Source: Myxococcota bacterium
Lineage (GTDB): Bacteria > Myxococcota_A > Polyangia > Polyangiales > Houyiibacteriaceae
Direction: 5' to 3'
DNA: 64,000 nt
Assembly (NCBI GenBank): GCA_028284955.1
Contig: JANQQS010000080.1
Location: 1-64,000 of the forward strand
Every line of letters starts with the position of its first letter. The stretch's first letter is position 1. Below are positions 1 through 49,600 of this stretch, piece after piece. The notes below the pieces were generated by a model that worked only from the letters and a program-made list of their open reading frames with translations, had not been told where the DNA came from and did no database searches. A program made the translations under genes and the position numbers.

Positions 1-124
1 TTGTTGCGACTGGAGCTGTGCGAGGCGGAGCGGACGAAGTCCGTGGAGCTGCACAGGTCTAGACGCAGTACGGGTCCGAAGGACCCTAGTCCAGCCGCGT
101 TCAGGCCAAAAGGCCGCCGCTCTA
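1..124 (-). repeat. Dispersed TAGAGC hairpin element, copy A (cut by window edge)
   Basis: Read on the minus strand from position 124, this begins TAGAGC and aligns without gaps to 45145-45268 on the plus strand, with 7 mismatches in 124 bases by eye. It contains the GGGTCC-TTC-GGACCC and CGGAC-TTC-GTCCG hairpins. The copy at 45145 runs on to 45361, so this one probably continues left of the window. The TAG at its end (122-124) is the stop codon of the flavin reductase gene. Its mechanism of spread is unknown. Confidence 0.85.
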
Positions 125-637
125 ACCTAGGAGGCGGTAGGAGCCGTTGAAATACACCAAAGGCTCTCCGTCGCTCCACTCGGCAGCGCCTACCCGCCCG
201 AAGCACACGGTGTGGCTTCCCACGCGCTCGCTCTTCATCAACGTGCACTCTAGTCGAGCAAGCGTATCGGGAAGAATTGGAGCTCCGGCAGCGCCGGTGC
301 GCCATTGCAGCCCGTCAAAACGAGCTCCTTCAAACTGCGCGTCACTAAATCGCTTGGAAAGGTGCTCCTGGTCGGCTCCGAGGAGATGAACGGCAAAGGC
401 GCCGGACCGCACGATCAAAGATTCGGTTGAGGAGCTTTGGTTCGCACACACGAGCACGATGGGAGGGTCCGCGGACACGCTGGAAAACGCAGACACCGTC
501 ATTCCCCGCAGCTCACCATCATGCTGGGCGGTAACCACCGTTACACCCGAAGCCCATCGTCTGAGGGTTTGTCTGAAGGTTTGTGGATCGAGTGCCACGG
601 GGTGTCCTGTTTCGCCTGCCTTGCGCGTTCCCGTCAA
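122..637 (-). CDS. Flavin reductase domain protein (HpaC/DIM6-type)
   Basis: The 171-residue product has the single split-barrel flavin reductase fold typical of the small subunit of two-component monooxygenases, which uses NAD(P)H to reduce free FMN or FAD. Visible hallmarks are the N-terminal FRQTLRRWASGVTVVTA stretch, the GMTVSAFSSVSADPPIVLVC segment (flavin-contacting in the family) and the C-terminal PLVYFNGSYRLL. The length is normal for the family. No monooxygenase large subunit lies nearby, so the oxygenase partner cannot be named. It is divergent from the dehydrogenase gene at 737. Its stop codon lies inside the repeat element at 1-124. Confidence 0.88.
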   Translation of the reverse strand: MTGTRKAGETGHPVALDPQTFRQTLRRWASGVTVVTAQHDGELRGMTVSAFSSVSADPPIVLVCANQSSSTESLIVRSGAFAVHLLGADQEHLSKRFSDAQFEGARFDGLQWRTGAAGAPILPDTLARLECTLMKSERVGSHTVCFGRVGAAEWSDGEPLVYFNGSYRLLG

Positions 638-8707: not shown

Positions 8708-8781
8708 ATGTTCGGGTTCCGAAGGACCCCCAGTGTAGATAGGCAGGGGCAGCCGCGATCAGGCAAAAGGCCATTGCTCTA
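8708..8781 (-). repeat. Dispersed TAGAGC hairpin element, copy B (short or truncated)
   Basis: On the minus strand it starts TAGAGCAATGGCCTTTTGCC followed by TGATCGCGGCTG and then GGGTCCTTCGGAACCC, matching the first 30 bases and the first hairpin of copies A and C. I find no matching distal end, so it is truncated or diverged. Its TAGAGC starts 6 bases after the stop codon of the RCC1 gene at 8788. Confidence 0.7.
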
Positions 8782-44364: not shown

Positions 44365-45147
44365 GTGACCGAGCTCATCGAACCCAAGCACATCGCCCCC
44401 CTCGAACTGACCAACGAAGATCGCGTATTCGTGCTCACCGGCGCCGGGGTCAGCGCCGAAAGCGGCCTACGCACCTTCCGCGATTCAGACGGTCTTTGGG
44501 AACAGCATCGGGTGGAGGATGTCGCAACGCCTGAAGCATGGGCGCGCGACCCAGAGCTCGTGTGGAGATTCTACAGCTTACGACGCGAGCAAGCCGCCAA
44601 AGCTGAACCCAACGCGGCGCACCATGCACTGGCGCAGCTCGAACAAAAGCTCGGCGAGCGCTTCTATCTGTGCACCCAAAACGTCGACGACCTGCACGAG
44701 CGCGCGGGCAACAAGCGCGTGCACCACATGCACGGCATGCTCTTTCTCAGTCGCTGCGAACAAGGCTCCAGCCAAAACGACGGCCTGCGATATCACTGCC
44801 CCTGCGGACGCGACGACCCCCAAGCCGACGCCAAGAGCTACCCCGACCTCGCGTCCGTACCGCGCTGCACAGACGGAGGTCGTCTGCGTCCTCACATCTG
44901 TTGGTTCGGCGAAGTCCCCTTCGGCATGAACCAAATCATCGGCGAACTCAGCCGCTGCACCGTGTTCATCACCATCGGCAGCTCCGGATCCGTATACCCC
45001 GCCGCCGGATTCGTGCGCCACGCCCGCGGCCTACCCCACAACCCCAAACGCATCTACATCGGCCCCGAACCCCCAGACAACGCCCACGAGTTCAACCAAA
45101 TCCTCCAAGGCCCCGCCACAGAAACACTACCGCGGCTCGTGGGCTAG
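44365..45147 (+). CDS. Sir2-family NAD-dependent protein deacylase
   Basis: A 260-residue sirtuin removing acyl groups from Lys with NAD. Motifs: GAGVSAESGLRTFRDSDGLW, TQNVDDLHERAG, the catalytic HMHG, four zinc-binding Cys (SRCEQGS; YHCPCGRD; PRCTDGG) and PHICWFGE. The longer Cys-Cys spacer, with 14 to 30 residues between the Cys pairs, is unusual. The start is GTG 44365. The stop codon TAG (45145-45147) is the first three bases of element copy C, so the last residue Gly is directly followed by repeat DNA. Confidence 0.93.
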   Translation: MTELIEPKHIAPLELTNEDRVFVLTGAGVSAESGLRTFRDSDGLWEQHRVEDVATPEAWARDPELVWRFYSLRREQAAKAEPNAAHHALAQLEQKLGERFYLCTQNVDDLHERAGNKRVHHMHGMLFLSRCEQGSSQNDGLRYHCPCGRDDPQADAKSYPDLASVPRCTDGGRLRPHICWFGEVPFGMNQIIGELSRCTVFITIGSSGSVYPAAGFVRHARGLPHNPKRIYIGPEPPDNAHEFNQILQGPATETLPRLVG

Positions 45148-45361
45148 AGCGCTGATCTTTTGGCCTGATTGCGGCTGGACTAGGGTCCTTCGGACCCGTA
45201 CTGCGTCTAGACCTGTGCAGCTCCACGGACTTCGTCCGCTCCGCCTTGCACAGCTCCAGTCGCAACAACCTCCTCGCTCTCTCCCTGCGAAAGGCTCGGA
45301 GCCTTCCTCAGTCGTTCGTTGTGGGGGCGCTCGCAATCAGACTCAAAATCTCAGCACTCTA
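45145..45361 (+). repeat. TAGAGC hairpin element, copy C, complete with 11-bp terminal inverted repeats
   Basis: Starts TAGAGCGCTGA and ends TCAGCACTCTA (10 of 11 bases inverted-complementary), both ends bounded by TA. Inside are three-base-loop hairpins: GGGTCC-TTC-GGACCC (45183-45197), CGGAC-TTC-GTCCG (45226-45238) and AAGGCT-CGG-AGCCTT (45291-45305), and a longer CTGTGC/GCACAG pairing. The first 124 bases match copy A. The size (217 bp), TIR and TA ends recall MITEs of the Tc1/mariner-IS630 type; this classification is inference. Confidence 0.8.
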
Positions 45362-45418
45362 TGAGACGCGGCTTAGCCTTTTCGACCAGCGTGAAGGCAT
45401 GCCGCGAACTCTCCGGTA

Positions 45419-45453
45419 ACCAGGTCACGTGCATCCCGGCGGGGGAGCTTGGG
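45419..45453 (+). repeat. 35-bp direct repeat, left copy
   Basis: ACCAGGTCACGTGC followed by a C-rich block and GCGGGGGAGCTTGGG; it is repeated at 45595-45629 with 3 mismatches. Confidence 0.85.
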
Positions 45454-45462
45454 AGACTGTGT

Positions 45463-45495
45463 TGTTCGGAGGGTTTGAGGCAAACCCTCCGAACA
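45463..45495. other. 15-bp perfect hairpin with three-base loop
   Basis: TGTTCGGAGGGTTTG and its exact complement flank the loop AGG. No T-run follows on either strand, so it is not a simple terminator. It lies between the two 35-bp repeats and is symmetric on both strands. Confidence 0.85.
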
Positions 45496-45594
45496 CGCGG
45501 GTACGACCCGCGCCGGGCCCCCTCCCGACTCCGGCCGCTGTCGCGACCGCCCCATCGCTTCGCGGCGGGGCCCCAGCAGCACACGACTTACGCG

Positions 45595-45629
45595 ACCAGG
45601 TCACGTGCGTCCTGGCGGGGGAGTTTGGG
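45595..45629 (+). repeat. 35-bp direct repeat, right copy
   Basis: Partner of 45419-45453. The repeats are 176 bases apart start to start. Confidence 0.85.
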
Positions 45630-45656
45630 TGAATCGGCGGGGTCGTACCCCGACGA

Positions 45657-45679
45657 GAGGGTCTGGGTGCCAGACCCTC
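45657..45679. other. 10-bp perfect hairpin with three-base loop
   Basis: GAGGGTCTGG and CCAGACCCTC around GTG. A further CGGGGT-CGT-ACCCCG hairpin lies at 45638-45652 and CGGGT-ACG-ACCCG at 45498-45510. All share loops of three bases. Confidence 0.8.
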
Positions 45680-45687
45680 AATCAACG

Positions 45688-45814
45688 TAGAGCAGTGGAA
45701 TTTTGGTCTGAGCTTGAGCGCCCCGGCAGCACAGCCCGGATGACGCACGAATAGTGCTTCGTCCGGGCGAGCAGGGGAGGTAAGCCAAGATCAGGGCAAA
45801 AGGCCGCTGCTCTA
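45688..45814 (-). repeat. TAGAGC hairpin element, copy D, complete with 11-bp terminal inverted repeats
   Basis: On the minus strand it begins TAGAGCAGCGG (45814 down) and ends CCACTGCTCTA (45688), 10 of 11 complementary and bounded by TA. The next bases, CCTTTTGCCCTGATCTTGGCT, match copies A to C. The centre is a long imperfect stem (GCCCGGA... TCCGGGC with loop GAATA). The stop codon of the parA gene (45812-45814) is its terminal TAG. Confidence 0.8.
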
Positions 45815-46561
45815 GCTGCATTGGGCGAAGGCGGGTTCGTACACCCGCAACCGCTCGTACTCTTCGAACGCTTTGCGATCTCGAATGGGGACTGGCGGGG
45901 CAATGAACTTGGGTCGAGAAGGAGCCCGAACTGCTTCATGCACTTCGTCGGCCAGCGCGCGCACTTCGTCGGCGGCTTTGCTCATCGGCGCGAACGCGGT
46001 CACGCCGAGCCCCATCTTGGGTGCTGCCTGAAATGCGATGCGGTTGCCCCATTCGCTTTTGAGCAGGTCGAACCCATAGTTCGAAAGCAAGCTTCGTGCG
46101 CCAGCCGCGACATGGGTGCGAGCAACCTGTCGGTTGATGAGCACAAAGGATTTGAGTTGACTGCGAACGATCGCGACACGTTGCACAAGATCGAATGTCT
46201 CATTCAAAGCCCACGCGTCCACCACGGAGGGCGCAGAAGGCACCAGCGCAGCGTCAGACGCCATCAGAGCAGCGCGCTGAACTTCCGGCTGACGAGCAGG
46301 GCAGTCGATAATCACGATATCGTTATCGGCCTTAAGGCCAGGCAAATCGGTCGAACGCATCCGGCGAATGTCGTACGTCGCAACATTCGGGGCTTGGCGC
46401 TCTTGTTTGCGCGCCTCCTCCGCCCACTTCGACGCGGACCTCTGGGGATCGGCGTCCACGACCAGCACACGCCGTCCTCGTTCCAACCATTCAAGAGCGA
46501 GCGACATCGAGACCGTGGTCTTGCCCGTTCCACCTTTCGTTCCGCAAAGAGAAATAATCAT
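45812..46561 (-). CDS. Orphan ParA/MinD-type P-loop ATPase
   Basis: ATG 46561 (249 residues) puts the deviant Walker A (GTKGGTGKTT) at residues 7-16; the frame is open upstream to 46783 but that is the shadow of the RND gene, and 46582 is another candidate. It has VVDADPQRSASKWAEEA (Walker A' and specificity helix), IIDCPARQ (Walker B) and the later FVLINRQVARTHVA. The closest known style is plasmid/chromosomal ParA of the small VirC1-like type. No ParB follows; the gene ends in element copy D. It may move cargo or DNA; the role is unknown. Confidence 0.85.
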   Translation of the reverse strand: MIISLCGTKGGTGKTTVSMSLALEWLERGRRVLVVDADPQRSASKWAEEARKQERQAPNVATYDIRRMRSTDLPGLKADNDIVIIDCPARQPEVQRAALMASDAALVPSAPSVVDAWALNETFDLVQRVAIVRSQLKSFVLINRQVARTHVAAGARSLLSNYGFDLLKSEWGNRIAFQAAPKMGLGVTAFAPMSKAADEVRALADEVHEAVRAPSRPKFIAPPVPIRDRKAFEEYERLRVYEPAFAQCS

Positions 46562-46601
46562 GGGAGAGGTTCGATATGTCATCGGCGATCGGGCGTCAAA
46601 A

Positions 46602-49600
46602 TTAAGCGGCGAGTTTTTTTTGTGCCCTACCCCGCGCCTTCCACAGGAGCGAAAACAAGCTCGGCACGACAAAAAGAGTAAGCACGCTCGAGAGCGCAAG
46701 CCCGCCCAGCACAATCGCGCCAACACCTCGATAGAGCTCCGAGCCAGCTCCCGGAAAAAGCACCATAGGCAGCAGGCCCGCAAGACTCGTCAGCGTCGTC
46801 ATGAACATCGGACGCACGCGTGACTTCACGGCATCGACCACGGCCTGCTCTAGCGAGTCGCCTTCGCGCAGCCTTCCGAGCGCACCATCGACAACCAAGA
46901 TCGCGTTGTTCACCACCACGCCAATGAGAATGAGAAAGCCGAGCGCGGTCATCAAATCAAGCGGCTGAGGGGAAAGAAACTGGTCTACCAAGGCGAGCCC
47001 CAACAAACCTCCCGCGCCCGCCAGCGGTACCGTGATGAGTACCGCAAGAGGCGCCAAGAAATCTTCAAAGAGCGCGGATAGAAGCAAGAAAGAAATCAAT
47101 ACCGCCAGCAACAAAACATCGACGAAACGCTTCTTGGCTACATCGAGTTTTCCGGCTGTTCCGCTGAGCTCCACGCGAACTCCCGCGGGGACATCTCCCG
47201 CGCGCTCGGCCGGTGCAACGATTTCATTCTGAATGGTGCGAATCGCAGATTCGATGGGCATGTCTTCCGCGGGAGACATCTGCAAAGTGATTGCGCGCCG
47301 CCGTTCGATTCGGCGTATGCTGTTTGGGCCGAGCGTTTCTTCAAATCGAGCGAGCGCTCCGAGCGGCACGATACGGCCGGTCGACGTGGCAACCGGAGCG
47401 CTCTCCAAATCCTGCACGCTTCGAACGACGTTTTCTTCTCCAGAACGCGCACGAAGCACAACGTTCAACTTCGGTTCTCCCTGAGGCCCGATCTCCCCGA
47501 TGATGGCTCCGTCGACTAGGGCATCCACCGCCAACCCCAGCTCGTCGCCATTCATTTCGAGACGCGCGGCTTCTTCTCGACGCGGCACAACATGCAACTC
47601 CGGAACACCCGGATCGAGAGAAGGAATGGGGCGTACTTGGCCGCCCGGCAATTGCTCTTGAATCGCCGCCATAAAGTCTCCTGCAATGCGAGAAAGCTCC
47701 GCTAAGTCACTCCCCGACACATCCACTTCTACGCTTCGTCCGCCGCCAAGGTTCCCGAACAACGGAGCCTGCGCCGCAAACGCAAACACCCCGGGAATCT
47801 TGCTCTGCACACGGCGAAGAATCTTGACGATGTCTTTGGCTTCATCCGGGTTCTCAGCCGCGCCGCCGGCGTAGATTAGGCTCGGAGTGCCCACGAAGAA
47901 TGTGCGCAACAACGCTGGCAAACCGTCGGTTTTTTTGTGCAGATGATTCAGCATGCGGGCTTGTGTGGCGACGCCCATTCGCTCGATCTCTTCTACCGAA
48001 GAACCCGGGGGCGGCACCAACATGCCAAACGCCAAGTTTCGATTGCCTACCGGCAGGTATTCGATGGGCGGCATCAGCGCCACCGACAACGCCACCGCCG
48101 CCCCCACTGCACCAACTACCGCGACCACATTGCGAGCCATCGATTGAGTCACCCGGCCGACAATCGCGCCTACGGAATTACGAAACCGAACCCCCCACGC
48201 AGCGAGCCGAGACGGGTTCGTTTCTGGTTTGGGTTTGAGCAATCGAGCGGCGAGACTCGGAATCACCATCACCGAAACGACGAGCGAAGAACCCACCGCC
48301 AAGGTGATCGCGACTGCTACATCGCGGAGCAACTGCCCCACTTCGCCGTCCCACGTGATGATGGGGAGGAATACCGCACAGGTCGTTAGCGTGGATGCCA
48401 AAATCGCGCCCCATACCTCGCGCACTCCGTGGTAGGCTGCCTCCGCGGCGGTTTTGGCTTTGCGCCTCCACGTGTCGATGCTTTCGAGCGACACGATGGA
48501 GTTGTCGAGCACCATGCCCACCGCAAAAGTAATTCCCGCGAGGCTCACCACATTGATGGTGCGCCCCGTCAGCATCATCCCAAGCGCAGTCCCGAACACG
48601 CTCACCGGAATCGAAATAGCAATGATCGCCGATGCGCCCAGGCTGCGGAGAAAGAACACCAGCACGATCACCGCGAGAACCGCGCCGAGCAACAGGTTTT
48701 GCCGCACGAGGTTTAGCGAATCGCCAATGTACCGCTTTTGATCGCTAACGATTTCAAACTTCAGCCCCTCAGGTGCAAAACGCTGCTCGTTGAGCTCGTG
48801 CACACGATCTCGCATCGCCTGCGTGACCTCCAGCACGTTGGTGCCAACTTCCCGTCGCAGCAAGATGATCATCGAAGGACGGTCGTCGTGCCGCGCCATC
48901 CCGCCGGGCTTGCGTAGCCCTTTGCCCACGTCGGCTACATCTCGGAGCAACGTGGGCGTGCCGTCGCGCGATGTTCCGACCACGATCTGCTCGAGCCGAG
49001 CCACTTCGGTCGGAACAAGCGGCGTACGCACTAGGTAACGACGCTTGCCCAAGGTGACATCGCCTCCGCTGACATCGCGAAGCTCCCCCTGCACCCGCTC
49101 GGACAAAGTTTTCACGGTGAGCCCGCGCGCGGCGAGCGCCACCGGATCGAAGTCGATATGCACCTCGGTATCGCGACCACCCACCAAAATCGCGGAGGCC
49201 ACACCCGGAATGCGTTGCAGCTCGGGCAAAATCTCCTCGTACACCCAGGTGCGATACGGCGCGACCTCGGATCGATCGTGCGCCCGAATCGTCATCACCG
49301 CGAGAAAGGGCCCGGTGCTATCGGCCGTTTCCACCACCGGTTCCTCGGCCGCCTCGGGGTAACCCGCAACTTGGCTGAGCCGATTGGTCACCCGCACCAG
49401 CGCCTCGTCGATCGGCGTGCCGACTTCGAGTTCGAGACGTAGCGACCCTTCCCCGAGATTGGCGGTGCTGGTCATTTCCACCAATCCATCAATATCTTTC
49501 AGTGCCTCTTCTTGACGTTCAAGAATCTCGGTCTCGATCTCGACCGGCGCAGCGCCAGGCCACCACGTATTCACCGAGAGCACGGGTTGAGCGACGTCAG

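Follow-up and report, generated by a model that had tools for sequence, protein, structure and literature searches.

The segment and its neighbours

Within the window, the whole stretch of 64,000 nucleotides that was analysed, a gene for a Sir2-family NAD-dependent deacetylase (44365..45147, plus strand) runs into a segment of 217 bases that extends end to end from 45145 to 45361. The gene-side end of this segment is TAGAGCGCTGA (45145..45155, plus strand; the end of the pyrimidine strand), its first three bases being the TAG that serves as the stop codon of the upstream gene. The far end (45351..45361, minus strand) is TAGAGTGCTGA, or TCAGCACTCTA as given beside the gene-side end, and the two 11-base ends are complementary at 10 of 11 positions, with the inverted repeat extending inward beyond them. 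These positions and this pairing are as a first-pass annotation had described them for what it took to be a complete MITE-like copy bounded by TA. In the window alone the 11-mer end with one mismatch is found 2 times against 0.82 expected, which is not significant. The segment was also said to be rich in hairpins and this is borne out on both strands, the minus strand folding far better than shuffled sequence (RNA z -6.87) and the plus strand also beating its shuffles (RNA z -3.98). The element as a whole (45145..45361) is assigned to the minus strand, its purine-rich strand, which is probably the one that folds judging by the copies, the fold and the strand-specific wobble pairs.

The most conserved part is a structured core at 45254..45340 on the minus strand, CGAGCGCCCCC..CGACTGAG-hairpin-CGCAGGGAG..GAGGAGG, that is matched at 63.5 bits by R1, a covariance model of the core, and is further defined by its covariation. 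The canonical unit of the family is 125-127 nt (L038, for example, is ~126 nt), and the window copy is a composite in which such a canonical ~126-nt palindrome is joined by ~91 nt from another hairpin module (45177..45267, with no strand assigned) that is absent from canonical 126-nt copies. Part of this module, bases 66-123 of the query (45205-45262), stands alone in related genomes, and the extra ~91 nt were probably acquired through a nested insertion. The second module was seen alone at L060, L075 (G030), L066 and L071, in tandem in one of these genomes and adjoining tRNA genes in two others. In most copies a conserved tail of ~45 nt follows the right end, whereas here there is only a short tail-like stretch (45362..45378, plus strand) that resembles the conserved tail TGGGATGCGACTT.. 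found after the far end of other copies; the family's true outer boundary therefore probably lies elsewhere than at 45361.

The segment has relatives within the window. Another family member, 127 nt long and with a different inner hairpin, lies at 45688..45814 on the plus strand, and its gene-side end at 45814 supplies the TAG stop of a convergent gene (45812-46783, minus strand). A further copy on the minus strand (1..127) is cut by the start of the contig, the assembly breaking in the repeat, and the gene-side end of a decayed copy is found at 8764..8781 on the minus strand. Between the first two elements there is another hairpin-rich repeat (45419-45683), and a query of 45362-45687 has 82 matches in the same genome, often adjoining elements docked on stop codons.

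Copies and stop-codon docking

The genome to which the window belongs is a draft of 6.07 Mb in 223 contigs, in which a 227-base query gives 54 BLAST matches, the longer ones with 81-100% identity and several of them near full-length. As many of these matches sit at contig ends, the repeat probably breaks assembly in these MAGs. The BLAST matches divide into modules, and with R1 at least 124 matches to the core are found in the same genome, a copy number that settles the reality of the segment. Further copies with matching ends at TA are present, with two end types among the copies of this genome. The segment described in the first pass is real, with the qualification that this copy is composite and that the family probably does not end at 45361.

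Within the order, 42 of 183 genomes have the core by R1, and in a sample taken across the phylum 33 of 377 do so at E<=1e-5, other classes included. Nearly all of the named carriers are uncultured Myxococcales, Polyangiaceae and Deltaproteobacteria MAGs, some being named just 'uncultured bacterium', with two carrier records labelled Bdellovibrionales and Alphaproteobacteria, where the label may be wrong. Tandem core elements within a few hundred bases were observed at L309 and L131 (G005) and at L314 (G008). Viral contigs gave no exact match to the core pattern, and a literature search found no described Myxococcota repeat of such a kind. A known Rfam RNA was rejected, as for the window there is no family at the gathering threshold and there are only chance-level matches to an E of 5.

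Docking was scored in the own genome for 88 distinct gene-side ends with enough flank, with open reading frames of at least 100 codons, and in 80 of these the gene-side end gives the stop of the upstream gene or lies within 12 nt of one. The in-frame stop is the element's own TAG in 48 of the 88, it lies 0-12 nt upstream of the element in 32, and there is no stop in the remaining 8. The docked stops are TAG in 75 cases, TAA in 5 and TGA in none, TGA making up 20 of the 49 stops among the genes of the window under a crude gene calling. Within a related genus the TAG of the gene-side end is the exact stop in 17 of 18 cases, the count for far ends being 7 of 26, and many copies in other families are docked likewise, the stop being TGA or TAA in some lineages. 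Measured against a rough null, the 29 stop-codon TAs among 199 non-coding or stop TAs of the window, the docking has a binomial p of 3e-18 in the own genome and 9e-14 in the related genus, values that are orders of magnitude only given greedy ORF calling and related copies. The genes downstream of docked elements are convergent in 27 cases and codirectional in 20.

Insertions probably survive mostly at stop codons because an element that begins with its own stop triplet would leave the protein unchanged. Survival by neutrality predicts both orientations, however, and it fails for the fixed orientation and for the scarcity of the element elsewhere in intergenic DNA. As orientation is left unexplained, the account of neutral insertion at stops is kept as part of the story only.

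The attC sites of integrons are structured sites that also lie at gene 3' ends in one orientation, with the bottom strand folded, and in being structured and placed at gene 3' ends in one orientation the repeat is like them. Unlike attC, it occurs as scattered single copies by ordinary genes and also between convergent genes. An integron attC was rejected as the flanking genes of the window converge, the host genes are ordinary (gyrB) and there is no cassette array.

The folded core and the gyrB sites

An alignment of 99 distinct cores, fitted to the model and so favouring structure, has 93.9% of its cells forming standard pairs, with both sides changed in 22 of the 28 core pairs and a covariation score of 0.511 compared to 0.133 for shuffled alignments (0 of 500 reach 0.511) and at most 0.091 for slid ones; earlier model-free MAFFT alignments agree. 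When the pairs are read on the purine-rich strand there are 156 G-U against 35 A-C, or 77 against 35 once one nearly constant G-U pair is taken out, and RNA of this strand is more stable than that of its complement in 84 of 98 copies. The wobble pairs indicate that the strand which would fold is the purine-rich one, and this better-folding strand is antisense to the gene at which the element is docked. Outer stems from different lineages are unrelated, although they are paired inside each copy, so that the ends of the element vary by lineage and the core is kept. Several outer stems, each self-paired, can surround the same core in one genome (L282-L285 in G065; L298, L300 and L301 in G028). 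The hairpins were thus rightly set apart from those of ordinary MITEs, as they belong to a nested composite built around a covarying structured core.

Mobility was examined at the 3' ends of gyrB in 18 congeneric genomes, a single locus. G001 and G055 have a full element on the stop of gyrB, in G011 the stem is kept and the core deleted, and short end remnants are present in G018, G020, G022 and G051. The site is empty in G016, G019, G023, G050, G052, G053 and others, the empty site of G023 (TAGCTGGCGCG..) compared to the occupied (..CACACTAGGCGG..) or remnant (..TAGCCGGTGCGG..) state fitting a duplication of TA or TAG. Gain and decay of the element are thereby seen directly, at one locus, although the empty state could be loss rather than non-insertion. 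As the occupied, deleted and empty states fit a TA (or TAG) duplication, the repeat moves, or has moved. The term MITE-like of the first-pass annotation is apt in the broad sense only, in that the element is non-coding, bounded by TA and inverted repeats, present in many copies and missing from orthologous empty sites.

It might be assumed that the repeat is an RNA element of the host, a terminator or a determinant of mRNA stability at 3' ends that is selected by the host and spread and homogenised by recombination, its docking and orientation reflecting function. The element sits at gene ends in a position and orientation that hardly vary, also between lineages with different stop codons, and its core shows compensatory evolution, both of which are in keeping with this. 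However, the strand that folds better and bears the wobble pairs is antisense to the gene at the dock, many orthologous gyrB genes within one genus lack the element, and the nesting of modules and the close similarity of copies within a genome look like mobility. Selection as a host RNA element is therefore doubtful as the explanation.

Candidate movers and known repeats

The derivation from Tc1/mariner-IS630 elements that was first proposed would make the segment an ordinary MITE, a deletion derivative whose terminal inverted repeats are recognised by an IS630 transposase, which moves it and duplicates TA. The TA ends, the inverted repeats, the size of 100-200 nt and the empty sites consistent with TA duplication are all as such a MITE would have them, and in distant families the elements that share the core end in long TIR-like sequences near TA, for example AGAGGGTGTAGCCAAA. 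Against it, a DDE_3 (IS630) transposase is absent from the own genome, and among genomes of the order core carriers have DDE_3, if anything, less often (11 of 42) than non-carriers do (65 of 141), a comparison made without kinship correction. No autonomous carrier of the ends was found, and around seven IS630 loci of carrier genomes both the ends and the core are missing, with one chance-like 9-mer in L360. In addition the ends diverge whilst the core is conserved, the opposite of a MITE defined by the terminal repeats of a transposase, and the core covaries in a strand-specific manner. An IS630 origin is accordingly not supported and is unlikely.

A second candidate mover is a Y1 (HUH) tyrosine transposase that recognises a folded single strand, as in REPIN/RAYT systems. 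The hairpin is strand-specific, and the sole Y1 protein of the own genome (L244:1432-2340) resembles REP-associated tyrosine transposases, although at 73.6 bits it falls below the NCBIfam cut-off of 80. Y1 is commoner in core carriers (31 of 42, compared to 55 of 141 non-carriers; Fisher p 9e-5, uncorrected, without kinship correction and confounded by kinship), and the termini of GTAG-REPs often supply a TAG stop codon (PMC3733652). The element flanks neither the Y1 gene of the own genome nor 13 Y1 loci of carrier genomes, however, and three genomes (G011, G063 and the complete-looking G001) have the core with no Y1 detected. The repeat is moreover a single long palindrome with another core, and paired GTAG hairpins were not seen, short of a systematic tag search. 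A REPIN/RAYT-like system is thus unlikely; in total 20 transposase loci of carrier genomes were inspected, and none has the core in its vicinity.

The best explanation is probably a structured mobile repeat of Myxococcota, non-autonomous, docked on stop codons and moved in trans, of which the segment is a composite copy. A postulated trans-acting recombinase would recognise the folded purine strand (as ssDNA) or the ends, and would insert the element at TA, duplicating the TA. So placed, the hairpin would directly follow the upstream gene as its 3' untranslated region, and by analogy with what is reported for ERIC it would probably affect the 3' ends or stability of transcripts. A bolder proposal is that of a phylum-wide mobile class inserting specifically at stop codons in one orientation, with the folded single strand recognised, the core rather than the terminal repeats as its signature, and an as yet undescribed enzyme as its mover; this is put forward tentatively, as a possibility that is somewhat improbable.

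Several known repeats share features with this one. The ERIC (IRU) elements of enterobacteria are ~127-nt imperfect palindromes, intergenic, with TA ends and a stable RNA fold, and in Yersinia an orientation-dependent effect on upstream transcripts has been reported (PMC2229807). By its described features, a canonical palindrome of 125-127 nt at TA in intergenic DNA, the repeat is like ERIC, but it differs in host phylum, in its conserved core and in near-obligatory docking on stop codons. REPs and REPINs are likewise palindromic, with REPs mostly downstream of genes, yet REPs measure 20-40 bp and carry a GTAG/CGTC tag, whereas the repeat described here forms a single structure of ~126 nt around a core of 87 nt, and no RAYT is linked to it. 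The Correia/NEMIS and RUP MITEs are ~100-200 nt, non-coding and have inverted repeats and TA ends, those of RUP matching IS630-Spn1 (PMC2229807). The Myxococcota repeat is like them in size, inverted repeats, TA ends and lack of coding, but unlike RUP it has no IS630 partner that could be found and its ends vary between lineages. It is best filed among the small structured repeats of the ERIC/REPIN/MITE type, new in its host range, core and strict docking on stops. The single features have precedents, whereas their combination and regularity are without precedent as far as the literature found shows.

If this is true, many Myxococcota genes get their stop codon and 3' untranslated region from a structured element that is mobile. 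That its orientation on stops is nearly fixed is a sharp regularity which simple models of insertion at TA do not predict, and a conserved core with changing ends challenges the practice of tracing MITEs to their transposases by means of terminal repeats.
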